From positions 1 through 64,000 of the forward strand of contig JAJDAP010000019.1 of NCBI GenBank assembly GCA_029261795.1: DNA of 64,000 nucleotides, read 5' to 3'. Source of the DNA: Deltaproteobacteria bacterium. Its GTDB lineage: Bacteria > Myxococcota_A > UBA9160 > UBA6930. A program made the translations under genes and the position numbers. Each line of letters opens with the position of its first letter. Within the stretch, counting starts at the first letter, position 1. Positions 8,046 to 33,227 of the stretch are shown piece after piece. Below the pieces are notes generated by a model. It was not told the origin of the DNA and ran no database searches. It saw only the letters and a list, made by a program, of their open reading frames with translations.

Positions 8046-8096
8046 GCTCGCTCCTGCGTGGCCCGTACAGGATAGGACGCGGGCCTGGAGCCGCCC

Positions 8097-8110
8097 ATGA
8101 CAGCCGTCAT
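8097..8110. promoter_or_regulatory. Crp/Fnr-type operator A (hemerythrin promoter)
   Basis: Perfect palindrome ATGAC-AGCC-GTCAT. On the minus strand a TATCCT hexamer (8069-8074) lies 32 bp from its centre, followed by a 17-nt leader and the hemerythrin ATG at 8045. This is the spacing of a class II Crp/Fnr activator site centred at -41.5. Confidence 0.75.
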
Positions 8111-8265
8111 ACCGCCCCATCCTCGCAGCCCCTCGAGCACGGGCCGTGTGCACCGGGTGTGACCGCGATCGAACGAATCTGCGGATTCTGGTCCGGTGTG
8201 AGGCAAGGCGCCCCGCACTGGCCCTCGAGGCAGCGCCTAGCCGCCGCAGGGTCGTCGACGCTGGT

Positions 8266-8279
8266 ATGACAGTTGCACG
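8266..8279. promoter_or_regulatory. Possible degenerate operator (half site)
   Basis: A conserved left half ATGAC (8266-8270) is followed after 4 nt by GCACG in place of GTCAT. A TAGACC hexamer (8300-8305) is 30 bp from the centre, before the small Cys-rich gene and the Crp/Fnr gene. It could give weak autoregulation; the mismatch makes this tentative. Confidence 0.3.
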
Positions 8280-8320
8280 CTTGTTCGAGTGCGCACCCCT
8301 AGACCAAGGAAGACGACACG

Positions 8321-8635
8321 ATGCAGGACCAACAACCGTCGCCGGGCACGACCGAGGATCCGGCGATCTGTCACCAGGCACACTGCCCTTTGCAACGAGA
8401 GGATGTCGACGCGGCGCTACTCGCCGATGTCGTGGTAGCGGTTCTCGCCGGCGAGGAAACGCCTGCCGGCCTCGAGAGCGGCACGATCAATCGCCACGAC
8501 CTCTGTAGCGATTGCGTGCGGGCCGTCTTCGATGGTGGACGCCCGGCGTTCACGGAGGCCGAAGCCAAGGAGCGGGTCGAACGAGCCGCAGTGCGGCTGG
8601 AGCGGCGCGCGAATCGCCTGCGGCGCCACACCTAG
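8321..8635 (+). CDS. Small Cys/His protein upstream of the Crp/Fnr regulator
   Basis: A 104-aa soluble protein with two paired metal-binding-like groups: ICHQAHCPL near residues 16-24 and HDLCSDCV near residues 59-66, then a charged C-terminal helix (AEAKERVERAAVRLERRANR). The Cys/His arrangement suggests a zinc or iron site but matches no family I know. It ends 14 bp before the Crp/Fnr-type regulator on the same strand, so the two are very likely co-transcribed. Given a regulator without cysteines, a partner protein with four Cys could take part in sensing; that is inference only. Confidence 0.65.
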   Translation: MQDQQPSPGTTEDPAICHQAHCPLQREDVDAALLADVVVAVLAGEETPAGLESGTINRHDLCSDCVRAVFDGGRPAFTEAEAKERVERAAVRLERRANRLRRHT

Positions 8636-8649
8636 ACGGGGCGCCGGTC

Positions 8650-9315
8650 GTGAATCGCGTGTCCTTCGATCAGGGTTTGTTTGCCGAGTCGCTGGGCGAA
8701 AGCGCCCGGCGGCGGCTCGGCTCAGCCGCCCTTTTGCACAACTTCGAGGACGGAGAGTTCCTCTACCACGTGGGAAGGCCGGCTGAGCGGCTCTGGTTGG
8801 TGGCCTCCGGTGGGGTTCGCACCCTGCGCACCCAGCCGAACGGCCGGACTACGGTGCTCGAATCGCTCGGCCCGGGCGAGCCGTTCGGGCTGGCCGCCGT
8901 GATTCCGGGTAGCCCGCACGCCGAGACCGCAGAGGGCGTCGGGGACGGTACGGCCTGGTTCGTTTCGCGCGATACGCTGTTCGCGGCGTTGGCGAGCGAC
9001 GCCGCATTGGCCCAGGCCCTCCTGCCGATCGTGGCTCGGCGACTCCAGGGCGCCCATGATCGGCTCTTCTCCTTCGCCCACGAAAGCGTGACGTCGCGAA
9101 TGGCCCACGAACTGCTCGAGGCCGACGATGGGCTGCGCATCGAGACGACCCGCCGCGGTCTGGCTGAGGCGGTGGGGACCACCGTGGAGACCGCCATCCG
9201 CGTGCTCCGACGCTTCGAACGCTCGGGTTGGATCGAGGCGGGCGTGGGCTGGGTACGCGTGGTGGAGCCCGGGCGGCTGGCCGATGTCGCCCGGGGAGCC
9301 CAGTTCGACTCGTAG
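8650..9315 (+). CDS. Crp/Fnr-family transcription regulator
   Basis: A 221-aa regulator with an N-terminal cyclic-nucleotide-binding-like beta barrel (FEDGEFLYHVGRPAERLWLVASG near residues 31-53), a dimer helix, and a C-terminal winged helix. The recognition helix reads TTVETAIRVLRRFE; the Glu and Arg align with those that read the TGA core in CRP and FNR sites, and the ATGAC half-sites found in this window contain that core. It has no cysteine at all, so it cannot be an iron-sulfur FNR; a heme, nucleotide or other ligand is possible. The GTG start at 8650 lies 14 bp after the small Cys/His gene. It is the likely reader of the five palindromes. Confidence 0.9.
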   Translation: MNRVSFDQGLFAESLGESARRRLGSAALLHNFEDGEFLYHVGRPAERLWLVASGGVRTLRTQPNGRTTVLESLGPGEPFGLAAVIPGSPHAETAEGVGDGTAWFVSRDTLFAALASDAALAQALLPIVARRLQGAHDRLFSFAHESVTSRMAHELLEADDGLRIETTRRGLAEAVGTTVETAIRVLRRFERSGWIEAGVGWVRVVEPGRLADVARGAQFDS

Positions 9316-9366
9316 CCACACGCTCTTCGACAGGCTCGGCTGCAATAGATCCTCGGCCACGTTCTC

Positions 9367-9993: not shown

Positions 9994-10007
9994 GCGTCCG
10001 TCGATCC

Positions 10008-11627
10008 TCAGCGCGCTTCCGTGAAGACGTTGGGCGCATCGCTGGCGAAGTCCACCCGCAGGAAACGCTCCTGGGGTTTCTCCGAGGCCGTCTTGGGAAT
10101 CTCCGCGACTACCTGGAGGTAGCAGGGCACGAAGTTGCTCTCGAGCGCCTGGCGGCAGGCTGCGAAGACGGCATCCGCCGAGAACGCGTTGGCATCCGTC
10201 GGTACGATCGCGGCGACCACGTCCTTCTCGCCAGGCGCGCCGGACGCGGCCTCGACGCCGTAGACGAAGACGTCCGTGACCGAGGGCACCTCGGCGATCG
10301 CCTTCTCGACGAAACCGATATTCACGAAGTCGCCGTTGTGCCGGATCCCGCCGCCCTTGCGGTAGTCGAAGAAGAGCCAACCCTCAGCGTCGGTGTGGCC
10401 GATGTCGCCACTGCGGAGCCATCCGCCGCGCGTCTTCTTCTCCGACGCAGACGGATTCTCGTGGTACTCCACACTGACACGCGCGCCATCCATGGGCCGC
10501 GAGCAAATCTCACCCGCGACGCCCGTCGCACACTCCTGGTCGTTCTCGTCGAGGATCTTCATGTCGAGTCCCGGACCCGGTTTGCCGAACGACCCCACCG
10601 GTCCGACGCCCACGGGATTGAAGGCGAGCCCCCCTTCGACGGCACCATACCACTCCAGGATCTCGGTCTGGAAGCGCTTGGCGAAGGATTCCCAAATGGC
10701 GGCCGGCATGCCGGCGCTCATCACCCGGCGCACGGGGTTCTCCCCGTCGTCGGGCTTCTCGGGCTCGGAGTAGATGGCGGTCGCCATCCCGCCGAGAAGC
10801 GAGAAGGCAGTGCAGCCGTGCAGGCGACACACGTCCCAGAGCTTCGACTTCGTGAAGCGTCGGCTGAAGACCGCGCGCAGGCCCATGGCCAGGGAGGGTG
10901 CGAGCGTCACGGCCTGGGCGTTGCCGTGGGTCAGCGAGAGTCCGGTGTAGGGTCGGTCGGCGGGCTGGTAGCCGGCGATGAGTCCGACGGCCGCATAACT
11001 TCCGAAACGCGCGTTCGGGAACACGACGCCCTTGGGGTCTCCTGTGGTTCCCGAGGTGTAGATGATCTGCAGCGGAGCCTCGGGGTCCGCGAGGCGGACG
11101 TCGACCGTTGACGCCGGCTTCGAGAGCAGCTCCGTCAGGGATTCGGTGCCCGGGGCCTCGTTCAGGGCGAGGACCTCTTCAGCTTCGCCGGACGCGAGCG
11201 CCAGGGTCCAGTCGACCTGGGGGTTCTGCTGCCGCGCCGCGACCACCTCGCGAAGTGCGTAGTCGGCGCAGACGACACCCTTGCAGCCGGCATTGCGCAA
11301 CATGAACGCGAGCTTCTCGCCGCGGGTGCGCGGATCGATCGGGACGAATACGCAGCCCGTGGTCGACGCCGCGATCATGGCCTCCACGAACTCCGGGTGG
11401 TTCCGCATCATCAGCGCGAAGCGATCGCCGGGAGCCATCCCGCGGGCGACGAGGAATGCCGCGATGCGATTGGCGTTCGTCGCGAGTTCCGCGAACGTGC
11501 GGACCTCGTCGGGGGTGGCTCCTCCGTCGAGGCTCGCGTGCTCGAAGGTGAGCACGTCGAGGTCGGGCTTCTGTTCGGCGCGGACCTGGATCAGGTCCGC
11601 CAGAACCATCTCGTTGCGTTCCCGCAT
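10008..11627 (-). CDS. Acyl-CoA synthetase (AMP-binding)
   Basis: ATP-dependent activation of a carboxylic acid to its CoA thioester. The 539-aa protein has the AMP-binding P-loop-like motif YTSGTTGDPKGVV near residue 172, the YGAVEGG segment, the hinge motif GWLRSGDIGHTD, and the C-terminal Lys region (KTASEKPQER). ATG 11627 is chosen because GGAGG lies 6 nt upstream and the start then falls 20 bp after the thiolase gene. Together with the thiolase, nitroreductase-like and dehydrogenase genes upstream it forms a degradation-type operon; the acid activated is unknown. Confidence 0.88.
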   Translation of the reverse strand: MRERNEMVLADLIQVRAEQKPDLDVLTFEHASLDGGATPDEVRTFAELATNANRIAAFLVARGMAPGDRFALMMRNHPEFVEAMIAASTTGCVFVPIDPRTRGEKLAFMLRNAGCKGVVCADYALREVVAARQQNPQVDWTLALASGEAEEVLALNEAPGTESLTELLSKPASTVDVRLADPEAPLQIIYTSGTTGDPKGVVFPNARFGSYAAVGLIAGYQPADRPYTGLSLTHGNAQAVTLAPSLAMGLRAVFSRRFTKSKLWDVCRLHGCTAFSLLGGMATAIYSEPEKPDDGENPVRRVMSAGMPAAIWESFAKRFQTEILEWYGAVEGGLAFNPVGVGPVGSFGKPGPGLDMKILDENDQECATGVAGEICSRPMDGARVSVEYHENPSASEKKTRGGWLRSGDIGHTDAEGWLFFDYRKGGGIRHNGDFVNIGFVEKAIAEVPSVTDVFVYGVEAASGAPGEKDVVAAIVPTDANAFSADAVFAACRQALESNFVPCYLQVVAEIPKTASEKPQERFLRVDFASDAPNVFTEAR

Positions 11628-11647
11628 CGGGGCCTCCGTCTGGTTGC

Positions 11648-12880
11648 CTAGGACTTCAGGATGGTCACGCACATGGCGGCGACATCGGAACCGATATTGC
11701 CACCGCCGTTCTGGGCGAGACCGATCGTCGCTCCCTCGACCTGGCGTTTGCCCGAGCGCCCCTGGAGCTGCTCGGTGAGCTCGACGATCTGGGCGATTCC
11801 GGTGGCGCCGACAGGGTGCCCCTTGCGAAGCAGACCGCCCGAGGTGTTCACCGGCAGGCGCCCGCCGAGTCGGGTGGCTCCCTCATCGATGAGCTTGCCG
11901 CCGTCACCCTTCGGACACAGGCCCAGATAGTCGTAGGCCATGATCTCGGCGGGCGCCGACGCATCGTGAAGCTCGACGACGTCGAGATCCTGCGGCCCCA
12001 GACCCGCCTCTTCGTAGGCCTCGCGCGAGCACAGCTCGCCGGCACCTTCTTCGTCGTACTCGTGGTCCCAGCCCGAACGCAACACGCTGGAAACGACGCG
12101 CACGGGCCTTTCGATGCCGAGCTGCCGGGCCTTGGCTTCGCTCACCAGGACCACGGCGGCGCCGCCGTCACCGATCGGCGAGCACATGGGTCGCGTCAAC
12201 GGCTCGGCGATCATCGGCGCGGCCAACACCTGGTCCACGCTCAGGGCTTCGCGGAACTGGGCGCGTGGATTCATGCTGCCGTGGAAGGAGTTCTTGGCGG
12301 ACACACCCGCGAACTGCTCGACCGTCGTGCCGTAGCGCGACATGTGTCCGCGCGCGGCCGCCGCATAGATGTCCATGAACATCGAGCGCTTCTCGCCGGC
12401 GCCGGACGAACCTGCGCTGGCACCGCTCTGCTTCGCGCCCTCCTGGAGGCGCTGCATGATCTCCTGCATCGCCTCGACGTCGACGGCACCACTGAAGGCG
12501 CCGAACGACTTGCGCTTGTCCGCGTGGTAGAGCTTCTCCACACCGAGGGCCAGCACCACGTCGTAGAGCCCGGCCGTCACCATGGCGGCCGCCTGGTGGA
12601 GTGCCGTCGAGGCACTCGCGCAGGCGTTCTCGACGTTCACGACCGGCAGCTTGCCCAGGCCGATCGAGCGCAGGATCACCTGGCCGCGGATGCTCTCCTG
12701 GCCCGTTACGAGTCCGGCGGCAGCGTTGCCGACCCAGGCGGCTTCGAGCGCTTCCTGCTCGATCCCCGCGTCGGCGAGCGCCTGCTTCACCGCCTCGGCA
12801 CCGAGGGCCTTGAGCCCGGTATCCATGTGCTTTCCGAACGGCGTCATCCCGACGCCAGCCACGATGGCATTCAACTTCAT
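11648..12880 (-). CDS. Thiolase-family protein (SCP-x/lipid-transfer type)
   Basis: A 410-aa thiolase-fold protein expected to cleave or form a beta-ketoacyl-CoA. The nucleophilic Cys lies in VENACASAS near residue 89 and the catalytic His in GHPVGATG near 353. The usual second Cys motif CxG near the C-terminus is replaced by NGGGNIGSD, which is common in SCP-x-like thiolases acting on branched or sterol side-chain substrates rather than in classical FadA. Second-last enzyme of the acyl-CoA operon, 20 bp before the ligase. Confidence 0.85.
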   Translation of the reverse strand: MKLNAIVAGVGMTPFGKHMDTGLKALGAEAVKQALADAGIEQEALEAAWVGNAAAGLVTGQESIRGQVILRSIGLGKLPVVNVENACASASTALHQAAAMVTAGLYDVVLALGVEKLYHADKRKSFGAFSGAVDVEAMQEIMQRLQEGAKQSGASAGSSGAGEKRSMFMDIYAAAARGHMSRYGTTVEQFAGVSAKNSFHGSMNPRAQFREALSVDQVLAAPMIAEPLTRPMCSPIGDGGAAVVLVSEAKARQLGIERPVRVVSSVLRSGWDHEYDEEGAGELCSREAYEEAGLGPQDLDVVELHDASAPAEIMAYDYLGLCPKGDGGKLIDEGATRLGGRLPVNTSGGLLRKGHPVGATGIAQIVELTEQLQGRSGKRQVEGATIGLAQNGGGNIGSDVAAMCVTILKS

Positions 12881-12901
12881 CGTCGTTCTCCGACGCCGGC
12901 T

Positions 12902-13690
12902 TCAGATCAGGCCGTGTCCCTTGATTCCGAGGGCATTCTTCAGATACTCGAGCTCCGCCTCCCGCCACGGTACCGGCGCGCTCTCCTGCAGCATTCCGTC
13001 CTCGCCGAGTTCCTTCACCACGGCTTTCGAGCGCGGGAATGCCTTCCCGAAGCCGTTCATGTGGAACAGCTTCTCGAAGGGCTGACGCGGGCGTTGGCCG
13101 CCGGCTTCGGGACTCTCCGCCGGATAGCCGACGGTCTGGAGCAGCAGTATGCGTGCGGTCTCGGGCAGGCCCAGGTTCTGGCGGATCTGCTCGCCGTGCG
13201 GCGTTCCGAGACAGCAGGTGCCGAGTCCCTGTTCGAACGCCATCAAGGTGGCCTGGGCAATGCCCTGACCGCAATCGATCTCGTTCATGCCCGGCTGCTT
13301 GAAGTTCTCGCGGATCGATTCGAAGAACGGAATGATCTGCTCCTCGAGCGCCTGCTCCTTGCCTTCGCCGAAGCCGAGCGCGCCCGCCTTCAGCAGTTCG
13401 CGGAGCCGGTCGGACTGCTCGTCGACGGCTGCGGTTTCGACGTACCAGACGATCACCACCGGAGCGATGCGGATCTGGTAGCCCGCGATCGGCGCCGTCA
13501 GCGCCTCATGGACCTCGGGTGGCGCACTGTCCTTGAACACCGCGACAGCGCGGAGGCTCTGGACGTTGCCCCAATGGGAGGCGATGCGCGCCGCCTCCAA
13601 CATGCGCTGGATCTTCTCCGGCTCCACTGGCTTGTAGGGAAGCAGGAAGCGGATGGAGCGCCTGCGACCGATGACCTGTCTGAGTTCCAT
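12902..13690 (-). CDS. Nitroreductase-family FMN protein
   Basis: A 262-aa nitroreductase-fold protein with the N-terminal phosphate-binding RRRSIRFL motif near residue 9, EAARIASHWGNVQS near 33, and the GTCCLGTP segment near 150. Such proteins reduce quinones, nitro groups or enones using NAD(P)H and FMN. ATG 13690 is chosen for its GGGAGAT site and because homology begins at MELRQVIGRRRS. Its place between two acyl-CoA genes, 21 bp after the thiolase start region, suggests reduction of an unsaturated or oxidised acyl intermediate; no direct evidence. Confidence 0.82.
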   Translation of the reverse strand: MELRQVIGRRRSIRFLLPYKPVEPEKIQRMLEAARIASHWGNVQSLRAVAVFKDSAPPEVHEALTAPIAGYQIRIAPVVIVWYVETAAVDEQSDRLRELLKAGALGFGEGKEQALEEQIIPFFESIRENFKQPGMNEIDCGQGIAQATLMAFEQGLGTCCLGTPHGEQIRQNLGLPETARILLLQTVGYPAESPEAGGQRPRQPFEKLFHMNGFGKAFPRSKAVVKELGEDGMLQESAPVPWREAELEYLKNALGIKGHGLI

Positions 13691-13719
13691 GGGATCTCCC
13701 TTGGGGCCCTGGGGCCCGG

Positions 13720-14925
13720 TTAGAGTTTTTCGGCGCCGACCAGTCCGAGGACGTCGTTGCAACCGTCCTCGATCATCGAGGCGCGCGCGTCGCGAAGCAG
13801 CTTCTCGATCGGGTACTCGCGGCTCAGCCCGTTACCGCCGAACACCTGGAGCGCCTGGCTCGCCACCTCGAATGCGGTCTGGGTGCAGAACGTCTTCGAG
13901 GCAATCGAGTACTGGATCAGCGGGGGCTGGGTCGAGTTGTGGAGCATGACCCGCCGGGCCAGGGAACGAGCGGCCTCCACCTGGCTGAACATCCGGAAGA
14001 GCTTCCCCTTCACATTCTGGTGCTCGAAGATCGGCCGTCCTCCCTGCACGCGTTCCCGCGCGTAGGCGAGCGCGTGCTCGAAGGCGGCCTGCGCGACACC
14101 GACGAACGTCGTGCCCATCGAGGCGTTGGCGGTGGCGAGCACCATCTCGACGATCCCGCTGTACGCCTCGGTCCCGACCACCATGAACTCGGCGGGTATC
14201 CGCACGTCGTCGAAGAAGATCTCGCCCTGGTTGAGCGCCCGTTGTCCCAGCTTGTCGAGCGGTGCGCCGCGCGACACGCCATCGAGGTCGAGCGGGACCA
14301 GCGCCACACCACCACCCCGGAACCCCTGGCTCGGGTCGATCGTGCAGAACAGGGTGGCCACCGTCGCGATGGTTCCGTTCGAGACCCAGGCCGCTTTCTG
14401 GCCGCGGATCACGTACGCGTCGCCATCCCGGGTGGCGATGCAGTTGGGGCGGATCGCCGGATCGTCGAAGTGCGGCTGGTCGAAAGCGAGCGAGTCGCTT
14501 CCGTGGTCCGGCTCGGTGACGGCCCAGCAGCCGATCTGGGGGTGCTCGGCCGAGGCGAAGCGCTCGATCAATTCCGGCCGACCCGAGAGCCTGGCGAACA
14601 TCGCCGGGAATCCCGCGACCCCGAGGCTGATCGCCAGCCCCGAGTCTCCCCAGCCGATCTCCTCGTTCACCAGGTACCGGATCCGCGCCGCCGTGATCGG
14701 ATCCATGTCGTCATCGCTGGCGCCGAGCGCGTTCAACCCGAGTTCCTGGTATTTCTCGAAGACGCTCCACAGGACCGAATCCCGGGCGATCACGTCCGCC
14801 GGGTCGTGGAGCCGGTCCAACGTGGTGCCCGCTGGCCGCACCACCTCCTCCGCGAACTTGTGGGTGAAGTCCCGGATGTCGCGTTCTTCGTCGGAAAGGC
14901 CAAGGTCGAGGTCCACGGTGGGCAT
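13720..14925 (-). CDS. Acyl-CoA dehydrogenase, first gene of operon
   Basis: A 401-aa flavoprotein of the acyl-CoA dehydrogenase family. Features include the helical N-domain, CWAVTEPDHGSDS in the beta domain, and VFGGNGLSREYPIEKLLRDARASMIEDGCND near the C-terminus. The catalytic-loop Glu appears as IEDGCND instead of the usual YEGTS, a form I have seen in environmental homologues. It is the promoter-proximal gene of dehydrogenase, nitroreductase, thiolase, ligase, TetR. A promoter-like TTGACG overlaps the tandem operator 20-65 bp upstream. Confidence 0.88.
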   Translation of the reverse strand: MPTVDLDLGLSDEERDIRDFTHKFAEEVVRPAGTTLDRLHDPADVIARDSVLWSVFEKYQELGLNALGASDDDMDPITAARIRYLVNEEIGWGDSGLAISLGVAGFPAMFARLSGRPELIERFASAEHPQIGCWAVTEPDHGSDSLAFDQPHFDDPAIRPNCIATRDGDAYVIRGQKAAWVSNGTIATVATLFCTIDPSQGFRGGGVALVPLDLDGVSRGAPLDKLGQRALNQGEIFFDDVRIPAEFMVVGTEAYSGIVEMVLATANASMGTTFVGVAQAAFEHALAYARERVQGGRPIFEHQNVKGKLFRMFSQVEAARSLARRVMLHNSTQPPLIQYSIASKTFCTQTAFEVASQALQVFGGNGLSREYPIEKLLRDARASMIEDGCNDVLGLVGAEKL

Positions 14926-14942
14926 GCTGTTCTCCCAGAAAG

Positions 14943-14987
14943 TGACGCTTACGTCATTTATTGAACACTAAAATGACGCTGTCGTCA
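14943..14987. promoter_or_regulatory. Tandem TetR-type operator and promoter
   Basis: Two copies of TGACG-N4-CGTCA, at 14943-14956 (spacer CTTA) and 14974-14987 (spacer CTGT), with centres 31 bp apart (three helical turns). The distal copy contains a minus-strand TTGACG -35, and TTCAAT lies 17 bp on as -10. The position directly before the operon that ends in a TetR gene fits autoregulation. The distal copy overlaps the stop codon of the PLP-enzyme gene. Confidence 0.6.
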
Positions 14988-16145
14988 AGTTTTTGAAACG
15001 CTCTCCTCCGGGCACTCGAGGGCCTCATTGGACGGGGCACCGCTACGCCCGGAACGTGAGGGTGAGGCGCCCCGCACCCGGCGATGGGCCAGGACGACAC
15101 CCCGCGGCGATGCGTCGCAGCGCCGGCTGGGGGAGAGCTCGATTGCGTTGTGGGTGTTCCAGAAGAGCACCGGGCCGTGGGGCAGCTCGCCGGACCGGTT
15201 GGCCGCCATCAGGCCCGCAAGGCACTTCGCCGAGTACGTGGTCTCGAGCTGGAGGTCGCCCGCAGCTGCGGCCTCGAGGGCCGCCGCTGCCGCCGGCGTC
15301 GAGACGCCGTATCCCGGGCCGAGTTCGCTCGGGTCGAGTCGGAACTGCTTCGGCTCGACGGATGCTGCCGGGATCTCGGGCGCGAGGCCGCGCAGCAAGG
15401 CCAGACATTCGTTGGCCAGCCGCGCCAACCTTCGCGGCGACGGCGGCAGGATGTCGGTCACGAGGACTCCGCGGACCCGGGTGCAAAGGCCCGCCAGCTG
15501 GAGGCCGAGCACGAGCCCGGCCACTGTTCCACCGCTGCCGACGGGAACCCAGATCTCGGCGGGAGCGGGCAGGATTCCGGCTTCGACCTGCTCTGCCAGC
15601 TCGAGGGCGGCGGAAACGAAGCCGATGATGCCGTGCGCGGACGTCCCCCCGGTCGGGATGAGGTACGGCGCCTCGCCACCCAGGAAGGAGCGGGAGAGAA
15701 GTGCCGCGGTCGCGAGCCCGGCCCGCGCAACGCTGCCCGCGTAGACGAGCTCGGCGCCATGGGCGGCGTCGAGCGCGAGCGTGCACGCGACCTCGTCGCT
15801 GAGCGGTTCCGGAACCAGCACCAGGCTCGTCTTCAAGCCGGCCGAACGTGCCAGAACGCTGGTCGCGAGAGCGTGATGGCTGCCGAAAGCACCCGTGGTC
15901 ACGACGCGTTCGGCGCCGCGCTCGAGCGCATGTCCGAGGATGAACTCGAGCTTTCGGGGCTTGTTGCCGCCATAGAGCCGGCAGCATCGATCGTCGCGTT
16001 TGACGAAGAACCTTCCGGGCGGAAGTCCCTCGAGTCGGAAGGGCTCGACGGGTGTCGGCTCGTCGACGAAGCGCCGTCTTGGCAGCCGCTCGCGAAGCGC
16101 CGGCCAGGCTCGGAACAGGGCAAGGTCGTTCGGAGACACGGGCAC
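14985..16145 (-). CDS. PLP enzyme, ACC deaminase / D-cysteine desulfhydrase-like
   Basis: A 386-aa fold type II PLP enzyme. GGNKPRKLEF near residues 59-68 holds the PLP-binding Lys, followed by GAFGSHHALATSVLA for substrate binding and VPVGSGGTVAGLVLG for the phosphate. Relatives break down ACC, D-cysteine or L-cysteate. The GTG start at 16145 overlaps the stop of the methyltransferase (TAGTG), so the two are translationally coupled and under the same operator B. The last 40 residues are Arg/Ser-rich and beyond the family core. Substrate not readable. Confidence 0.8.
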   Translation of the reverse strand: MPVSPNDLALFRAWPALRERLPRRRFVDEPTPVEPFRLEGLPPGRFFVKRDDRCCRLYGGNKPRKLEFILGHALERGAERVVTTGAFGSHHALATSVLARSAGLKTSLVLVPEPLSDEVACTLALDAAHGAELVYAGSVARAGLATAALLSRSFLGGEAPYLIPTGGTSAHGIIGFVSAALELAEQVEAGILPAPAEIWVPVGSGGTVAGLVLGLQLAGLCTRVRGVLVTDILPPSPRRLARLANECLALLRGLAPEIPAASVEPKQFRLDPSELGPGYGVSTPAAAAALEAAAAGDLQLETTYSAKCLAGLMAANRSGELPHGPVLFWNTHNAIELSPSRRCDASPRGVVLAHRRVRGASPSRSGRSGAPSNEALECPEESVSKT

Positions 16146-17185: not shown

Positions 17186-17233
17186 GGGGATGCCTCCTCG
17201 GATTCAGCCTCCCTCATGACTCCCGGTCCCGGT

Positions 17234-17247
17234 ATGACGGGGGTCAT
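17234..17247. promoter_or_regulatory. Crp/Fnr-type operator B (methyltransferase promoter)
   Basis: Perfect ATGAC-GGGG-GTCAT. On the minus strand GAGGCT (17206-17211) sits 32 bp from the centre, differing from the TAGGCT of operator C by one base. The predicted leader to ATG 17185 is short and carries the ribosome site. The -10 is the weakest of the set. Confidence 0.65.
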
Positions 17248-17280
17248 GCCGTGCGCTGCGCCGTCGAATCAGCGGCGGGT

Positions 17281-25505: not shown

Positions 25506-25669
25506 CCGGAAGTCCTCCACCGGCGGACGAAGCCGGCTAACAGGTGGCCGAGGGCGGCGCGGGCCGGGATCAGGCACTCGAGGAGCGAGGTCTTCCCGCT
25601 CCCCGGGCGACCCACGACGCCGACGACCAGGGGTTCCCCCGTGCGATCTCGAAGCGTCGAATCCGACAT
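25415..25669 (-). pseudogene. Truncated mobB-like P-loop ORF
   Basis: An 84-aa frame starting MSDSTLRDRTGEP and continuing with VVGVVGRPGSGKTSLLECLI, a Walker A P-loop of the MobB type (molybdopterin-guanine dinucleotide biosynthesis adapter; full length about 170 aa). After roughly 30 residues homology stops; the rest is the out-of-frame shadow of the gamma gene start. So the N-terminus of a cofactor-maturation GTPase seems to have been cut and fused upstream of the operon. It is the first frame after operator C on the minus strand, with a GGAG site 8 nt before its ATG. It may still be translated; activity is doubtful. Confidence 0.45.
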
Positions 25670-25728
25670 CCTCACGTCTCCGCTGCGTTGCTCGACGACG
25701 AACCTAGACGAGGTGGCCGACGGGCGGC

Positions 25729-25742
25729 ATGACGGTGGTCAT
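25729..25742. promoter_or_regulatory. Crp/Fnr-type operator C, bidirectional
   Basis: Perfect ATGAC-GGTG-GTCAT between divergent molybdoenzyme operons. Minus-strand TAGGTT (25701-25706) lies 32 bp from the centre, and plus-strand TAGGCT (25764-25769) lies 31 bp away, so one dimer could serve both promoters in class II position. Downstream are the mobB-like/gamma/beta/alpha/alpha/torD operon and the cytochrome b gene. Confidence 0.75.
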
Positions 25743-25789
25743 ACCGGGCATTGAATGCGCGCGTAGGCTGTTAGGTGGTAGGAGGTACA

Positions 25790-26320
25790 ATGAATCCCGG
25801 CGGCATCCGGCGCGGCCTCCACTCCGGGTACGCGCTGACCTCGCTGTTGTTGATCGCGTCGGGCCTGCTCCTGTGGGATGCCGACCTCCGCACGCGAATC
25901 GTGGGGGGATACGGCCGGGAGATCCTGGATTTCCACCTGTGGGTAGGCTGGCTGTTCGTCGCTCTTCCGCTCCTGGTGCTGGCCACCGCCCGCCCGCTGC
26001 TTCGCGACCTCAGGCGGCGCCTCGGCCCGCCGGATCCGCCCCTTGCGTGGCCCAAGGTCCACATCGTGGGCAGCCTGTTGGCCGTAAGCGTGCTCAGCGC
26101 CACCGGTGTCGTCCTCTGGGCAGACCCTGAACTGCCGCTGGCATGGGTGGACGCGATGAGTGCACTCCACCTGGCGACGAGCGGGCTGCTGACCCTGTCG
26201 ATCCCCGTCCACCTCGTGCTCGCTCGGCGAAAGATTGCGAGCCGGAGCCGCGAGATCCTCGGTCGTGCGTCGGCCGACGGTCCCCCGTCCCCGTTCGACT
26301 TCAATGAGAGCGGCGACTGA
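25790..26320 (+). CDS. Di-heme-type membrane cytochrome b
   Basis: A 176-aa membrane protein with four predicted helices: GYALTSLLLIASGLLLW, LWVGWLFVALPLLVLA, HIVGSLLAVSVLSATGVVLW and a fourth holding LHLATSGLLTLSIPVHLVL. His residues in LHSG, DFHLW, KVHIV, ALHLA and PVHLV sit at helix ends, as in cytochrome b561 / formate-dehydrogenase gamma proteins that bind two hemes b and exchange electrons with the quinone pool. A full AGGAGG site precedes ATG 25790 by 4 nt. It is followed 112 bp later by alpha-3, with operator D between, and is the only membrane anchor in the cluster. Confidence 0.82.
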   Translation: MNPGGIRRGLHSGYALTSLLLIASGLLLWDADLRTRIVGGYGREILDFHLWVGWLFVALPLLVLATARPLLRDLRRRLGPPDPPLAWPKVHIVGSLLAVSVLSATGVVLWADPELPLAWVDAMSALHLATSGLLTLSIPVHLVLARRKIASRSREILGRASADGPPSPFDFNESGD

Positions 26321-26344
26321 ATCCGTCGTCTCGAGCTTGCGGCT

Positions 26345-26358
26345 ATGACGCCCGTCAT
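26345..26358. promoter_or_regulatory. Crp/Fnr-type operator D (alpha-3 promoter)
   Basis: Perfect ATGAC-GCCC-GTCAT flanked by T and A. TATCCC (26381-26386) lies 32 bp from the centre, predicting transcription from about 26393 and a 40-nt leader to the alpha-3 ATG. It gives alpha-3/beta-2 their own promoter although the cytochrome b gene just upstream has operator C. Confidence 0.75.
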
Positions 26359-26432
26359 AACACCCGCGCGCGGGAAGAGATATCCCTTTCGAGGCGCGCG
26401 CCGGAGCATGGCGACGAGCAGGGAGGATTCCG

Positions 26433-29216
26433 ATGGCGGAAGCGATTTCTCGACGCACCGAGGGAACCTGGGCAGACGTCTACCGGGATCGTTGGACCTG
26501 GGACAGCGTGCATTTCGGGAGCCACGCGGTGGATTGCTATCCCGGCGGCTGTTCATGGCGCGTGTTCGTGAAGGACGGCAAGGTCGTGCGCGAGGAGCAG
26601 GCCGCACTTCACACACCGGTCGAAGCCGGCATCCCCGACATGAACCCGATGGGTTGCCAGAAGGGTGCGTGTTGGGGCCACTGTCACTACTCGCAGGACC
26701 GGGTGACCCATCCGCTCAAGCGCGTCGGCGAGCGCGGTCAAGGAAAGTTCGAGCGTGTCTCTTGGGACGAAGCTCTGGGCGACATCGCCGATGCCATGCT
26801 GGACGCGATCGAGGACCAGGGGCCGGAAGCGATCCTCTCGCTGCTGACACCCGAAGTCGGCGCAGCCCCTGCGCGGCTCTTCGCCAACTTCCTCGGCACG
26901 CCGACGACCGATGGCAACGCGGAGTTCCAGGACTTCAGCCCGGGTTGGCACCTGACCTGGGGCCTCTACAACCCCGTGTCGACCATGGACGACTGGTTCC
27001 TCGCGGAGCTCACGCTGATCTGGCACGCCAATCCCGTCTACACGAATATCCACTGGTACCACTACCTCGCCGAATCCCGTTACAACGGCGGCGAGGTGGT
27101 GACCATCGCTCCCGACTACAGCCCGTCAGCGATTCACGCCGATCATCATCAGCCGATCCGGATCGGCACGGATGCCGCGTTCGCGCTCGCGATGTGCAAG
27201 GTGATCATCGACGCCGGGCTCTACCAGAAGCAGTTCGTTCAGGAGCAGACCGATCTGCCCCTGCTGGTGAGAACGGACACCGGCCGTTTCCTGCGCGGGA
27301 ACGAGATGATGGCCGGCGATCGGGAGGATCAGTTCTTCTGGTGGGACACCCGGACCGGCTCCGCGGTGCCCGCGCCGCGCGGGACGCTGGCCACCGCGGG
27401 CGTGGATCCGGCCCTCGAGGGGCGCTTCACCACGACGCTCGTGGACGGCACCAGCGTGGAAGTCGAACCGGTGATGGCGCGGCTTCGGCGTCATCTCGAG
27501 GACTACACCCCCGAGAAGGCCGGAGAGATCTGCGAGATCCACCCCGACAACATCCGCCAGCTCGCTCGCAAGGTGGCCACGCGCAAGACCAAGATCTTCA
27601 TCGGTTGGAACTCGGGCAAGTACTACCACGGCGATCTGATGGAACGCGCCATGGCCCTGCTGCTCGGGCTCACCGGCAACTGGGGAAAGAAGGGAACCGG
27701 GACGCGCTCCTGGGCGATCATGGGAATGGACGGCGGCTCGTTCATGGCGCGCAAGGCCGGACCGGGCCAGGAGGAAGCGCAGAAGCTGATCACCCAGCTG
27801 ATGGCGATGCGGCGCCTGCTCACCCTGGAGGATCCCACGCTGACGGCGGAGATGACCCAGAACCGCGCCGCCGAGGCCGCCGGCGAACTCGGCGGCATGG
27901 GCGTCGTCGTTCCGCCGGCCTTCGTCTGGTACCACCAGTTCGGTTACAAGGAGCGCTGGAACAACCCCGAGAACAACGATCCGTCGATGAAGCGGACCTT
28001 CGACGAGTACATCCGCGAAGCCGTCGACAAGGGCTGGTGGGACCAGAGCTACGCGAAGGCCTACGAGGAAGTGGAACCCCGGGTGTTGTTCGAGGCGGGT
28101 GGAAACCTGCTACGGCGACAGCGTGGCGGACAGAAGCTCCTGCTGGAGAGTCTATGGCCGAAGCTGGAGATGGTGGTTTCCTGCGACTATCGAATGACGA
28201 CCACCGGCCTCTACTCGGACTACATCCTGCCCGCGGCCCAGCACTACGAAAAGCTGGGCAACAGCATGCCCTCCGTGCACCACCTGAACTTCGTCCTCTG
28301 CGACCGCGCGGTGGAGCCGCTCGGCGAGGCACTTCCCGACTACGAGATCGGCGTCCGAATCCTCGCTGCGATCGAAGACCGGGCTCGCAAGCGGGGCATG
28401 CGCGAGTTCAAGGACCGCAAGGGAAACGTGCGCACTCTCGAGAACCTGGTAGCGACCGCGACACTGGGCGGTGCGATGCGCGAGGAAGAGACCCGCTTCG
28501 ACGAGTCGATCCGCGACAACGCGGTCTACGGCGTCCTGCCGAAGGGAACCACGCTGAACACCTTGCGCGAGAAGGGGCAGGTCCGCTTCACCGGCTGGGG
28601 AACCGTTGGCCACGGGATCTCCCAAGCATCGACGATCAAGGAGGATGAGGTCCACAACCCCCTGCGTTGGCACACCGAAGACAAGGTGCCCTACGACACG
28701 CTGGTGCGTCGCGCCCAGTACTACATCGATCACGAGTGGTTCCTGGAAGCCGGCGAGGAACTGCCCACGCACAAGGAGCCGCCGGCGCACGGCGGTGCGA
28801 AGCGACGCTTCATGATGACCAGCGGCCACAACCGCTGGAGCGTTCACTCCATGAACATGACGAATAACGTCATCATGAACACGTACCGTGGCGAACCGTT
28901 CGTGTGTCTGAACGACGACGACGCCGCCGGGCTCGGCATCGAGAACGGAGAGCAGGTCAAGCTCGTCAGCGACGTGGGCGAGAGCCTCCTTGCCGCCAAG
29001 ATCACGCCCTCCTGCCGGCCGGGTCAGGTGATCGTGTACAACGGCTTCGAGCCTTACATGCACGAGAACTGGTACAGCCAGGCCGATCTCGAACCCGGTC
29101 ACGTGAAGCACCTGGGCCTGGTCGGGAACTACGGACACTTGAAGTACCGGATGTTCTCCTGGCAGCCGATCCCGGCCGATCGGGCCGTCCGCGTCGACGT
29201 CGAGCGGGTCGCCTGA
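26433..29216 (+). CDS. Type II DMSO-reductase-family molybdoenzyme, alpha subunit 3 (no Tat signal)
   Basis: A 927-aa catalytic subunit. FS0 ligands lie in SHAVDCYPGGCSWRVFVKDG and MNPMGCQKGAC; MDDWFLAELTLIWHANPVYT holds the candidate Asp molybdenum ligand; APDYSPSAIHADHH and GHNRWSVHSMNM match the other alphas. The start at 26433 has AGGGAGG 6 nt upstream, and the protein goes straight from MAEAISRRTEGTWADVY into the mature fold: no Tat signal hydrophobic stretch, unlike alphas 1, 2 and 4. So it should stay in the cytoplasm, as NarG and assimilatory enzymes do. It is paired with beta-2, 34 bp downstream, and perhaps with the cytochrome b upstream. Confidence 0.88.
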   Translation: MAEAISRRTEGTWADVYRDRWTWDSVHFGSHAVDCYPGGCSWRVFVKDGKVVREEQAALHTPVEAGIPDMNPMGCQKGACWGHCHYSQDRVTHPLKRVGERGQGKFERVSWDEALGDIADAMLDAIEDQGPEAILSLLTPEVGAAPARLFANFLGTPTTDGNAEFQDFSPGWHLTWGLYNPVSTMDDWFLAELTLIWHANPVYTNIHWYHYLAESRYNGGEVVTIAPDYSPSAIHADHHQPIRIGTDAAFALAMCKVIIDAGLYQKQFVQEQTDLPLLVRTDTGRFLRGNEMMAGDREDQFFWWDTRTGSAVPAPRGTLATAGVDPALEGRFTTTLVDGTSVEVEPVMARLRRHLEDYTPEKAGEICEIHPDNIRQLARKVATRKTKIFIGWNSGKYYHGDLMERAMALLLGLTGNWGKKGTGTRSWAIMGMDGGSFMARKAGPGQEEAQKLITQLMAMRRLLTLEDPTLTAEMTQNRAAEAAGELGGMGVVVPPAFVWYHQFGYKERWNNPENNDPSMKRTFDEYIREAVDKGWWDQSYAKAYEEVEPRVLFEAGGNLLRRQRGGQKLLLESLWPKLEMVVSCDYRMTTTGLYSDYILPAAQHYEKLGNSMPSVHHLNFVLCDRAVEPLGEALPDYEIGVRILAAIEDRARKRGMREFKDRKGNVRTLENLVATATLGGAMREEETRFDESIRDNAVYGVLPKGTTLNTLREKGQVRFTGWGTVGHGISQASTIKEDEVHNPLRWHTEDKVPYDTLVRRAQYYIDHEWFLEAGEELPTHKEPPAHGGAKRRFMMTSGHNRWSVHSMNMTNNVIMNTYRGEPFVCLNDDDAAGLGIENGEQVKLVSDVGESLLAAKITPSCRPGQVIVYNGFEPYMHENWYSQADLEPGHVKHLGLVGNYGHLKYRMFSWQPIPADRAVRVDVERVA

Positions 29217-29250
29217 TCGACCCAGGAAAGAAGCAAGGAGTCACGACACC

Positions 29251-30288
29251 ATGGCAACGCTCATTCGATCGAACCGTCAACTCGCCTGGGTCTTCGACCT
29301 CAACAAATGCATCGGCTGCCAGACCTGCTCGGTCGCCTGTCGGGTGCTCTGGAACGAGGGAGAGGAGGGGGCGGAGCAACAGTGGTGGATGTCCGTGAAC
29401 ACCATGCCCGGCCGTGGTACGCCGAAGGATTGGGAGAGCATGGGCGGCGGCTACGACGCGAACGGCGTGCTCCAGTCCGGGCAGGTACCGACCCCCGAGC
29501 AGTTCGGCGGCGGCTGGGACTACAACTACGACGAGGTGCTACGCGGCGGCCACGGTCGGAGCGTCCACCTGCAGAAGACCGCGGGCAGCAAGACCTGGGG
29601 CATGAACTGGGACGAGGACGAAGGCGCGGGCGAGTTCCCCAACGCCTACTTCTTCTACGCGCCGCGCATGTGCAACCACTGCAGCGAGCCGGCCTGCCTC
29701 GAAGCGTGCCCGACCGGCGCACTCTTCAAGCGAGAGGAGGACGGACTCGTACTTCGCGACGAAGACACCTGCCAGGGCAATCAGCACTGTGCCGGCGCCT
29801 GTCCCTACAAGAAGATCTACTTCAACGAGGCGCGCGGCGTCAGCCAACACTGCATCGGTTGCTTCCCGCGCATCGAGCAGGGCGTCGCGCCCGCTTGTGT
29901 TCGGCAGTGCCCGGGACGCGCCGCCTTCGTGGGCTACCTCGACGACGACGATGGCGCGGTGTCGAAGCTCGTGAAGAAATGGAAGGTGGCGTTGCCGCTC
30001 CATCCCGAAATGGGCACGAAGCCGAACGTCTACTACGTGCCGCCGCTGGCGCCGGCACCGCTCCGTGAGGACGGCAGCTTCGACGAAGGCGGCGACCGCA
30101 TTCCGCCCTCCTACCTGGAGGGGCTGTTCGGTACCGAGGTCCACGGCGCCCTCGACGTCCTACGGACCGAGCTCGACCGCAAGCGTCGCGGACGCGAATC
30201 GGAAGTGATGGATACGCTGATCCTCTACCGCTGGAAGGATGCCCTCGGTCACCTGGACCGGGATCCCGCCGAGATCGTCTGGGAGTGA
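29251..30288 (+). CDS. Molybdoenzyme iron-sulfur beta subunit 2
   Basis: A 345-aa paralogue of beta-1, same architecture: CIGCQTCSVAC, CNHCSEPACLEAC, CQGNQHCAGAC and CIGCFPRIEQGVAPACVRQC. Asn occupies the position of the fourth ligand in the third group, so again a [3Fe-4S] cluster is predicted. The shared segments GAGEFPNAYFFY and CPYKKIYFNEA make the relationship clear. It follows alpha-3 by 34 bp and ends 4 bp before the convergent alpha-4 gene, so it may also serve alpha-4, which has no beta of its own. Confidence 0.92.
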   Translation: MATLIRSNRQLAWVFDLNKCIGCQTCSVACRVLWNEGEEGAEQQWWMSVNTMPGRGTPKDWESMGGGYDANGVLQSGQVPTPEQFGGGWDYNYDEVLRGGHGRSVHLQKTAGSKTWGMNWDEDEGAGEFPNAYFFYAPRMCNHCSEPACLEACPTGALFKREEDGLVLRDEDTCQGNQHCAGACPYKKIYFNEARGVSQHCIGCFPRIEQGVAPACVRQCPGRAAFVGYLDDDDGAVSKLVKKWKVALPLHPEMGTKPNVYYVPPLAPAPLREDGSFDEGGDRIPPSYLEGLFGTEVHGALDVLRTELDRKRRGRESEVMDTLILYRWKDALGHLDRDPAEIVWE

Positions 30289-30292
30289 GCTG

Positions 30293-33151
30293 CTAGGCGG
30301 TCTCCGGCAGGGGAGCCAGGTCGACCCGGGTGTCGCGGTCGACCTGGTTCGGCTCGTAGTGCGAGTAGCCCCAGTGCAGCTGGCCATAGTCGCCGACGAG
30401 CTGGGTGATCTTGAACGGGCTCGGCGCCAGGGACTGGTGACAGCGGCCTCCGCGGAACTGGTAGGGCTCCCAGGCGTGGAAGATGTGGGCCTGGCGCGGC
30501 TGGATCGCTCCCGTGAGTTTGGCGCGGCAGACGAACTCGCCCAGGTCGTTGAAGACGCGCACCAGGCCGTGATCCCGGATCCCGCGCGCGCCGGCGTCCG
30601 TCTCGTTCAGGTAGATCACGGGCTCTCCACGTTGTAGCCGGAGCATCAGATCCTGGTCGCGCCACATGGCGTGCACGCTCCAGCGGGTGTGCCCGCCCGT
30701 GAGCGTGAAGGGATGGGCGCCGCCACTGGCCGGCGGCGCCTTGTGCATCGGCAGCTCTTCCCCGACCTCGAGGAACCAGGGATGGTCGATGTAGAACTGC
30801 TGGCGGCCCGTGAGCGTCGGGTAGGGATGCTTCTTCTCGACGAAGTCCCGCAGCGGCACAACGGGTTCGTCGGGGTCGTAGTCGGAGTAGATCCCGGCGG
30901 TTCCGCCCGCCGAACCGAGGCTGCTGATCCGCATGGCCCCGCCCCGTTTGCGCAGCGTCGCGAGATCGATTCCCTTCGACGCCCCGGAGGCGCCCAGGAT
31001 GAACTCGGCGATCGCCTCTTCGTCACGCGGCCCGAAGCGACCCGAATCGCTGAAACGTTCACCGAGATCGCCGAGGCTGCACGCCTGACCCCGGAACCCG
31101 CGCACCTGGGTAATCTCCCGGCGCTCGGCATCGCTGCCCACCTGCTGCGCCAGCAGCGAGAAGATCTCCCATTCGGGCTTCGATTCCCCGAGTGGCGCGA
31201 CGGCACGGTCGCCTAGCGTGAGATAGGGAACGAAGCTGGCGATGTACTTGATTCCGACCTTCTCGTACCAACCTGCGGCCGGGAGCAGAAAATCCGCGTG
31301 ACGCCCGGTTTCGTTGAGCCGGAAGTTGATGTCGACCACCAGTCGGGCGGAGCTGAACAACGTCTCGCGCACACGCCATCCCATCCGCGTGTGCCGCAGG
31401 ACGTTTCCGAACAGAGAGAACACGACGTCGGGCGGGCGTTCGCCGGGGGGCGGAGAGATCGGGAAGTGGCCCTTCTGAAGGGCCTCCTCGAGGTAGGGGG
31501 CGGCTCCGCGTTCCAGCCCGGGATCGCCGTGGGCCGCCGCCGTCTCGAACTCTGCGAGGCCGCCGTGGACCGCGTGAAAGATCGTGCTCGGGATGTACAT
31601 CGACTCGAACTCGGCGCGCAGGGCCTTGGGGTCGACCATCGACCGCGCGGCGGTCCAGGCCAGGCTGGGAAGTCCCAGCCGATCTTGCATCGCGACCAGT
31701 CCCATGCCGTCGAGCGCGACGAATGCGCCGGAGCGCCAACCGCCACCCGCGCGGCCCAGGTTCCCGGTGAGTGAGGCGAGCAGGATCTGCGAGCGCTGCG
31801 CCAGATCGGAATGATAGTTCTTGCACATGCCCCACTGCGAGAGGATGAGCGCCGAGTCGGCCGCCGCGAACTCCCGGCCGAATCGGCGGATCAGTCCGGC
31901 GGAAAGACCCGTGATGCCCGCGGCGGCCTCGGGCTCGGCGCTGGCCAGCCGCTCACGCAGCAGGGAGAAAGCCGTGCGCACCGCGGTCCGCCTCCCATCC
32001 AGCAGCGTGACCTCCGCGCGGACATCCAACTGCGGCATCACGCCATCCGGGACACGCAGACTTCGCTGGTCGCTGCCGGCGCAACCCGGTGCCCACGCAG
32101 GCGCGGCCGCGCCGCCATCCCACCACGCGAAGACATCACTCCGTCCGCCGCGGACCACGTCCGCCTCGCGCAGGAAGCGCCCATCGTCAGCGCGGATCAG
32201 GAACGGGAGATCGGTCTGCTCGAGCAGGTACTCCTCGTCGTAGAGCCCCTCCTCGATCACGAGCTGGCAAGCGGCCAACGCCAGCGCGGCATCGGTTCCG
32301 GGGCGAACGGGCACGAAGCAATCGGCGTGGATCGAACTCTGGTTGTAGTCCGGTGCGACGACCACCACGCGAGCCCCGTTGTAGCGGGCCTCGTTCACGA
32401 AGTGCGCATCGGGGATCCGCGCGGTTGCGGGATTGCATGCCCACAGCACCAGGTACTTCGAGCGGAACCAGTCGTCCGAGCTGCCATCGGTGTGGGGGGT
32501 TCCGAGCGTGATGGTGCCGCCGACGGCGAGATCACCGATCTGGGCCATCGAGTCCGTGATCGGCGCGCCGATCTGGCGGAAGAAGCGAAGACCGGCCGCC
32601 GTGTTGGCGCCGTAGTCGACGTTCGGGCCGAGTTCCAGCACGACGCCTTCGCCGCCCCGCTCGGCGAGCGTGTCCACCAGCCCCGACGCGATCTCGCCGA
32701 GCGCCTCGTCCCAGGAGACCCGCCGGAACTTCCCCGAGCCGCGCCCCCCGATCTGCTTCAGCGGATGGCGCAATCGGGCGCTGCTGGTCATGAGGTCGCT
32801 GCAACTCGCGCCCTTCTGGCAGCCCCGCGGATTCCAGTCCGGCACCTCTGCGTTGGAGGCGATGTAAGGCGCGGATTGCTCCTCGCGCCACACGATGCCG
32901 TCGCGCACGTAGAGGTTCCAGGCGCAGGACGACACGCAGTTCACGTTCGTATGGGTTCCGCACGCGACGCGATCCCAGCTCCAACGCTGCCGGTAGACGT
33001 CCCGCCAGTCCCCGTACCCAAGCGACGCAGCCACCACGGGAGGCGAGCTCGGGCGCAAGCGGTGCAGACTCACGCCGAGGGCGGTCGCCGCTCCGACGAG
33101 CGCAGTGGCCGCTCCCGCACGCAGGAACTCGCGTCGAGACAAGGACACCAC
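30293..33151 (-). CDS. Type II DMSO-reductase-family molybdoenzyme, alpha subunit 4
   Basis: A 952-aa catalytic subunit with a Tat signal (SRREFLRAGAAT, Arg pair at residues 6-7). FS0 region THTNVNCVSSCAWN and WNPRGCQKGASC; SSDDWFRSKYLVLWACNP holds the candidate molybdenum Asp; APDYNQSSIHADCF and GGHTRWSVHAMWRD follow the family. Overall closest in motif wording to alpha-1 (for example GMCKNYHSDLAQR versus GACKHYHSDLAQR). It is a stand-alone gene, with operator E 69 bp upstream and no beta, gamma or chaperone of its own, so it presumably borrows beta-1/gamma or beta-2 and the single TorD. Confidence 0.88.
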   Translation of the reverse strand: MVSLSRREFLRAGAATALVGAATALGVSLHRLRPSSPPVVAASLGYGDWRDVYRQRWSWDRVACGTHTNVNCVSSCAWNLYVRDGIVWREEQSAPYIASNAEVPDWNPRGCQKGASCSDLMTSSARLRHPLKQIGGRGSGKFRRVSWDEALGEIASGLVDTLAERGGEGVVLELGPNVDYGANTAAGLRFFRQIGAPITDSMAQIGDLAVGGTITLGTPHTDGSSDDWFRSKYLVLWACNPATARIPDAHFVNEARYNGARVVVVAPDYNQSSIHADCFVPVRPGTDAALALAACQLVIEEGLYDEEYLLEQTDLPFLIRADDGRFLREADVVRGGRSDVFAWWDGGAAAPAWAPGCAGSDQRSLRVPDGVMPQLDVRAEVTLLDGRRTAVRTAFSLLRERLASAEPEAAAGITGLSAGLIRRFGREFAAADSALILSQWGMCKNYHSDLAQRSQILLASLTGNLGRAGGGWRSGAFVALDGMGLVAMQDRLGLPSLAWTAARSMVDPKALRAEFESMYIPSTIFHAVHGGLAEFETAAAHGDPGLERGAAPYLEEALQKGHFPISPPPGERPPDVVFSLFGNVLRHTRMGWRVRETLFSSARLVVDINFRLNETGRHADFLLPAAGWYEKVGIKYIASFVPYLTLGDRAVAPLGESKPEWEIFSLLAQQVGSDAERREITQVRGFRGQACSLGDLGERFSDSGRFGPRDEEAIAEFILGASGASKGIDLATLRKRGGAMRISSLGSAGGTAGIYSDYDPDEPVVPLRDFVEKKHPYPTLTGRQQFYIDHPWFLEVGEELPMHKAPPASGGAHPFTLTGGHTRWSVHAMWRDQDLMLRLQRGEPVIYLNETDAGARGIRDHGLVRVFNDLGEFVCRAKLTGAIQPRQAHIFHAWEPYQFRGGRCHQSLAPSPFKITQLVGDYGQLHWGYSHYEPNQVDRDTRVDLAPLPETA

Positions 33152-33213
33152 ACTACCTCCACCGGCAAGGGCCCGATACCGAGGAAGCTAGTCTTTGCAG
33201 GTCAGGGCGCGGT

Positions 33214-33227
33214 ATGACGCCCGTCAT
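33214..33227. promoter_or_regulatory. Crp/Fnr-type operator E (alpha-4 promoter)
   Basis: Perfect ATGAC-GCCC-GTCAT, same spacer as operator D. Minus-strand TAGCTT (33185-33190) lies 33 bp from the centre; the leader to ATG 33151 would be about 27 nt. Confidence 0.72.

Follow-up and report, generated by a model that had tools for sequence, protein, structure and literature searches.

A predicted Crp/Fnr operator, TATGAy-N4-rTCATA, and its hemerythrin-linked regulator in an uncultured deltaproteobacterial lineage

Five copies of a perfect palindrome, ATGAC-N4-GTCAT, lie in a 64,000-nucleotide stretch of Deltaproteobacteria bacterium DNA (assembly GCA_029261795.1, contig JAJDAP010000019.1, positions 1 to 64,000; hereafter the window), together with the gene of a Crp/Fnr-family regulator. 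We consider it highly likely that this regulator represents a new Crp/Fnr subfamily that binds an extended box, TATGAy-N4-rTCATA, activates class II promoters and governs a hemerythrin and molybdoenzyme regulon. In the mechanism that we propose, a regulator dimer would bind TATGAy-N4-rTCATA such that the box, centred at about -41.5, replaces a -35 element and activates a sigma-70-type promoter with TAnnnT as its -10. The most conserved target would be the divergent hemerythrin gene beside the regulator's own gene; further targets in this genome would be three molybdoenzyme units (ethylbenzene dehydrogenase/steroid C25 dehydrogenase-like), a cytochrome b561 and an acyl-CoA-related operon. The regulator gene, the boxes and their -10-like hexamers are placed as follows.

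8650..9315, + strand: Crp/Fnr-family regulator (crp), recognition helix GTTVETAIRVLRRFE; Pfam PF00027, PF13545, PF00325; GTG start assumed
8096..8111, no strand assigned: box 1, CATGACAGCCGTCATA, upstream of the hemerythrin gene (- strand)
8069..8074, - strand: -10-like TATCCT of box 1, 32 bp centre to centre
17233..17248, no strand assigned: box 2, TATGACGGGGGTCATG, upstream of the O-methyltransferase gene series (- strand)
17206..17211, - strand: -10-like GAGGCT of box 2, 32 bp centre to centre; weak
25728..25743, no strand assigned: box 3, CATGACGGTGGTCATA, bidirectional, two divergent promoters (predicted)
25701..25706, - strand: -10-like TAGGTT of box 3, 32 bp, toward the gamma-beta-alpha-alpha-chaperone genes
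25764..25769, + strand: -10-like TAGGCT of box 3, 31 bp, toward cytochrome b561
26344..26359, no strand assigned: box 4, TATGACGCCCGTCATA, perfect 16-bp consensus, preceding the alpha-beta genes (+ strand)
26381..26386, + strand: -10-like TATCCC of box 4, 32 bp centre to centre; weak
33213..33228, no strand assigned: box 5, TATGACGCCCGTCATG, upstream of an alpha subunit gene (- strand)
33185..33190, - strand: -10-like TAGCTT of box 5, 33 bp centre to centre

An exact scan places the 14-bp palindrome at 8097, 17234, 25729, 26345 and 33214 and nowhere else in the window, in agreement with the initial annotation of this sequence, and the rarity that the annotation had estimated (about 0.06 chance copies in 64 kb) is reproduced by dinucleotide shuffles of the window (n = 100; mean 0.05 exact copies, maximum 1). 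Matches to TATGA-N6-TCATA with at most one mismatch are the same five boxes and none besides, against an expected mean of 0.13. Each site stands before the gene that had been named for it, that at 25729 appearing to serve two divergent promoters; the site at 17234 does precede a methyltransferase gene as described, but heads a whole minus-strand series rather than that gene alone. The -10-like hexamers reported at 31-33 bp from every centre were likewise found on measurement. A whole-genome scan, one of the checks that the annotation had proposed, yields only nine exact copies in 5.74 Mb (139 contigs), and one match to a reversed-pattern control. The four copies outside the window (contigs C26, C47, C103 and C118) have a flank other than R (A or G) on at least one side, and none of them has TAnnnT at the correct distance; they resemble chance background.

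The other proposed check, a scan of relatives, shows that the palindrome recurs in the loci around orthologs of the regulator, where a reversed control is nearly absent. Forty exact palindromes near orthologs were collected by the palindrome alone, the -10 element not being a criterion, and 25 of these 40 sites have a TAnnnT that begins 28-31 bp away from the centre, whereas other offsets have about 0.1 each. No further conserved element such as a -35 was seen in the aligned promoter sites. Class II Crp/Fnr activation employs an activator box at -41.5 together with a -10 element and without a -35 element; the promoters here, with a box at about -41.5 from inferred transcription starts, a -10 and no -35, fit this type, and the class II spacing put forward for the window therefore recurs in relatives although spacing played no part in their selection.

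The extent of the box follows from its flanks and from word counts. Reading outward, the flanking base of 80 half-sites is A in 64, G in 16 and C or T in none. Counting perfect 5-bp palindromes without bias gives 41 copies of TATGA-N6-TCATA, spread over 25 of 30 loci, and 35 of ATGAC-N4-GTCAT, over 22; these two are the sole words with several A/T bases, the rest being GC-rich background. Flank bias and word counts together lead us to write the box as TATGAy-N4-rTCATA, so that the core of the 14-bp site first described is retained while its extent grows to 16 bp; this consensus in relatives is also distinct from the FNR box (TTGAT-N4-ATCAA), as had been claimed for the window motif. The site logo was built from pattern-selected sites, and its fixed columns are true by construction.

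Of 379 genomes in the phylum, 28 gave clear orthologs of the regulator in a profile search; they represent nine families, all within this order and its sister family. With these orthologs and the palindrome present in relatives, restriction of box and regulator to a single genome was rejected. The composite of ATGAC box, R flank and -10 has 74 matches, in 24 of the 28 genomes with the regulator, versus 16 matches in 14 of the 351 genomes without it (Fisher p 3e-24), the reversed pattern giving a handful. A census covering the order's 80 genomes finds the 16-bp form with its -10 in 17 of the 25 that have the regulator and in 0 of the 55 that lack it, with 0 of 80 for the reversed control. Site density alone is threefold greater where the regulator is present, with control density equal. 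The suggested tie between the local Crp/Fnr protein and the palindrome is strengthened by this co-occurrence across many families, and the product of 8650-9315 is the likely binder of the boxes.

Several observations weigh against this reading. The genomes are related and not independent, so the p-values are indicative only; the composite patterns were tested on genomes that had suggested them, and the order amounts to 80 genomes in all. Of the genomes with the regulator, one (G356) has no composite match and three (G284, G295, G339) have one each, by the relaxed 16-bp form, while two genomes rich in molybdoenzyme alpha genes (G003, G014) have no detected regulator. Four crp loci show no recognisable box upstream of crp, and two of the six window -10 elements (GAGGCT, TATCCC) are weak taken alone. 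Binding, activation as opposed to repression, transcription starts and signal are, moreover, all deduced from sequence.

Boxes frequently stand about 30-100 bp before the start of the crp coding sequence, where binding could block the crp promoter, and the Crp/Fnr protein might act mainly as a repressor (e.g., of crp), the -10 spacing then reflecting another activator or a weak promoter. We hold this to be unlikely: repressor sites usually overlap the -10 or the start, whereas here the -10 has class II spacing on the side of hemerythrin and the other targets, and no -35 is conserved, which is an activator layout. Much less probable again is that another DNA-binding protein reads the palindrome and accompanies Crp through linkage or lineage. 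The case for Crp is purely comparative, and 14 of the 351 genomes without an ortholog carry composite matches, but the symmetry of the box and the spacing of its half-sites are those of Crp/Fnr sites, it lies between crp and the hemerythrin gene, and the order census has no genome with the box that lacks the regulator. That the five copies are chance, or repeats spread by molybdoenzyme gene duplication, has practically no likelihood: two of them share the spacer GCCC, but spacers and flanks differ, unrelated genes are also preceded by sites elsewhere (hemerythrin, MobB, AurF, Coq4, acyl-CoA dehydrogenase), and a chance origin is rejected by the shuffles, with 0.05 copies expected, by the genome count and by the chance-like state of the other four copies. 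The TAnnnT spacing in relatives, the composite matches across the phylum and the order census refute this alternative as well.

The hemerythrin gene adjoins crp in 28 of 29 loci and is divergent from it in 27 (distances taken from stop-to-stop frames). In 25 of the 29, the 700 bp upstream of crp contain a box (score 8.8 or higher, out of 11.4), compared with 14% of random same-locus stretches, and a -10 facing hemerythrin often accompanies it. This crp-hemerythrin pair is the conserved core, and the label "molybdoenzyme regulon" given to the window sites, although apt in this genome, is too narrow in general. A molybdoenzyme alpha gene was detected in 21 of 28 genomes with the regulator versus 7 of 52 without (p 6e-8); since 7 of the 28 have none detected, molybdoenzymes would be typical and not obligatory targets. 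Orthologs of the alpha subunit encoded at 30293-33151 (65-78% identical, in five other genomes) have the same box and -10, G271 having a 44% paralog, and acyl-CoA dehydrogenase orthologs (72-73% identical) in G129 and G346 have their own box and -10. Recurrent predicted targets include MobB divergent from cytochrome b561, AurF-like and related di-iron proteins, and Coq4-like proteins. In G152, where no molybdoenzyme alpha was detected, the box stands before P450, globin and flavin monooxygenase genes (L145, L146, L148, L149); these would be O2-linked enzymes within the same regulon. Separately, an unusual expansion was seen in G089, G103, G223, G271, G301, G346 and others, each with about ten or more alpha genes of the dimethyl sulfoxide (DMSO) reductase type II family, which frequently stand in tandem pairs.

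In the window itself, the genes beside and behind the boxes are these.

7599..8045, - strand: hemerythrin (HHE) protein, 148 aa, Pfam PF01814; conserved neighbour of crp
8321..8635, + strand: 104-aa protein with C-x4-C and HxxCxxC-like motifs, between hemerythrin and crp
10008..17185, - strand: probable operon behind box 2, six genes (next six lines)
16145-17185, - strand: O-methyltransferase
14985-16145, - strand: pyridoxal phosphate (PLP) enzyme
13720-14925, - strand: acyl-CoA dehydrogenase
12902-13762, - strand: nitroreductase
11648-12880, - strand: thiolase
10008-11672, - strand: AMP-binding enzyme (AMP ligase)
17281..25577, - strand: DMSO reductase type II/EbdABCD-like genes behind box 3 (next five lines)
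about 24831-25577, - strand: gamma
about 23803-24834, - strand: beta
about 20930-23788, - strand: alpha
about 18036-20909, - strand: second alpha
about 17281-17955, - strand: chaperone
25775..26320, + strand: cytochrome b561-type membrane protein, Pfam PF01292, behind box 3
26433..30288, + strand: EbdAB-like molybdoenzyme alpha (26433-29216) and beta (29251-30288), behind box 4
30293..33151, - strand: RR-motif (Tat-like) molybdoenzyme alpha subunit, behind box 5

Against the NCBIfam DMSO reductase type II models, one beta subunit (530, cut-off 481) and the chaperone (153.1, cut-off 152.3) pass, while the other beta (468/481), the alphas (869-916/985) and the gamma (150/170) fall short, and none of the window subunits reaches the NCBIfam equivalog cut-offs for EbdA-D (ethylbenzene dehydrogenase). 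The nearest solved structures are a DMSO reductase type II molybdopterin subunit and ethylbenzene dehydrogenase alpha. We read the window molybdoenzymes as probable DMSO reductase type II enzymes that are closest to ethylbenzene dehydrogenase, mostly below curated cut-offs. The 104-aa protein was considered as a conserved crp partner and discarded, there being no homolog in any fetched locus. A mobB remnant at 25534-25668 (- strand) retains a P-loop N-terminus, MSDSTLRDRTGEPLVVGVVGRPGSGKTSLLECLIPAR, its homology ending after about 37 residues; in relatives a full mobB, divergent from cytochrome b561, stands at the corresponding box where the window has the remnant. Further along, a 2220-aa open reading frame (37908-44570, + strand) has no Pfam match and a high second-position GC.

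The regulator combines a cyclic nucleotide-binding domain with a Crp-type winged helix-turn-helix, both with Pfam scores above cut-off, as expected of the Crp/Fnr superfamily, and the best Foldseek matches of its predicted structure are CRP structures (model pLDDT 67, moderate). No NCBIfam Crp/Fnr equivalog cut-off is passed, the best being FixK (Caulobacter) at 55 bits versus 300. Across 30 sequences, residues T167, R168, R169, G176, T177, E180, T181, A182, I183, R184 and R187 are the same throughout, and position 179 has either Val or Ile, giving an invariant (V/I)-E-T-A-I-R helix. We take the counterparts in the E. coli CRP helix to be R180 (V/I here), E181, G184 (I here) and R185, and those in the FNR helix to be V208, E209, S212 (I here) and R213. 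Cysteines are absent from the window regulator, number 0-3 per true ortholog and appear in none of the columns at least 90% conserved; lacking a cysteine cluster, an FNR-type iron-sulfur (Fe-S) switch is excluded. The canonical cAMP-pocket Glu and Arg appear to be missing, the presumed CRP Glu72 and Arg82 columns being mainly Ala/Leu and Tyr/Pro in 30 orthologs (columns placed by eye, the E. coli sensor domain unaligned). Judged by these residues, the regulator is no Fe-S FNR and would probably not be a standard cAMP receptor.

The constant hemerythrin neighbour, of an O2- or NO-binding class, suggests that the regulator would respond to oxygen or a nitrogen oxide, most likely to a state of low oxygen or of nitrogen oxides that is possibly read together with the hemerythrin. 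Hemerythrin-like dnrN is a target of other NO-responsive regulators (PMC1274295), which gives a hemerythrin-regulator link precedent. More speculatively, the adjacent hemerythrin could be a sensory partner: this di-iron protein, on binding O2 or NO, would control a cysteine-free Crp/Fnr activator, either directly or through titration of the signal, and that activator would switch on molybdoenzymes that hydroxylate C-H bonds independently of oxygen; we offer this as a doubtful, though conceivable, extension. For molybdoenzymes that hydroxylate without oxygen (ethylbenzene/steroid C25 dehydrogenase type), of which no regulator was found in the literature searched, the analysis predicts a regulator, an operator and a regulon in an uncultured lineage; the predicted Crp/Fnr activator is paired with a hemerythrin gene almost without exception.

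The box also bears on the Crp/Fnr recognition code, for which it is a further data point. The published correlation pairs R180 with G3 and E181 with A6 (PMC1274295); Val/Ile-180 and Glu-181 predict TTGA, the box is ATGA, and a further residue is thereby implicated, such as the Ile at the FNR Ser212 position. That this Ile alone fixes the outer A was not secured: distant homologs in G051, G023 and G217 have the same ETAIR helix, yet no such box near the gene. The distant Crp of G275, with an ETVSR helix, has a perfect TTGACTTGGGTCAA at L108 2399-2412, just upstream of its own gene, a pairing that would be fitting for a Ser212/outer-T relation.

Set beside known systems, the window genes match the alpha, beta, gamma and chaperone families of ethylbenzene and steroid C25 dehydrogenases, with equivalog scores below cut-off. 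With the FNR/ANR/FixK/DNR group (TTGAT-N4-ATCAA) the regulator shares fold, half-site spacing, a V/I-E-x-x-x-R helix and, as predicted here, class II activation, but its box has an outer A and not T and mostly C rather than T inside, and the protein has Ile at the FNR Ser212 position and no FNR-type cysteines. E. coli CRP and Desulfovibrio HcpR (TGTGA-N6-TCACA) have the same dyad spacing, TATGA-N6-TCATA being one base pair off per half-site; the G to A change falls at the base pair read by CRP Arg180, and that Arg is Val/Ile here. Neither the helix nor the box is accordingly of CRP type (Arg180-Glu181...Arg185 with TGTGA). Nor does the box match those of HcpR, DNR or NnrR (TTGAC-N4-GTCAA, TTGAT-N4-ATCAA, TTGcg-N4-cgCAA), and regulon content differs. 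Published boxes are wTGTGA-N6-TCACAw for CRP and Desulfovibrio HcpR, wyTTGACnnnnGTCAArw for HcpR1, TTGAT-N4-ATCAA for DNR and GTAAC-N4-GTTAC for HcpR2, with no mention of ATGAC or TATGA boxes in that work (PMC1274295). No description of the box motif or of hemerythrin-Crp/Fnr pairs was found in the literature searched, which covered few subscription journals, and the box is very probably a previously undescribed Crp/Fnr operator type that recurs with its regulator across the order and surrounding class. HcpR1 of deltaproteobacteria shares the TGAC-N4-GTCA core, and both are Crp/Fnr proteins free of a cysteine cluster in related bacteria; HcpR1, however, has an outer T and the targets hcp and frdX, whereas here an outer A goes with predicted control of hemerythrin and molybdoenzymes (PMC1274295 for HcpR1).

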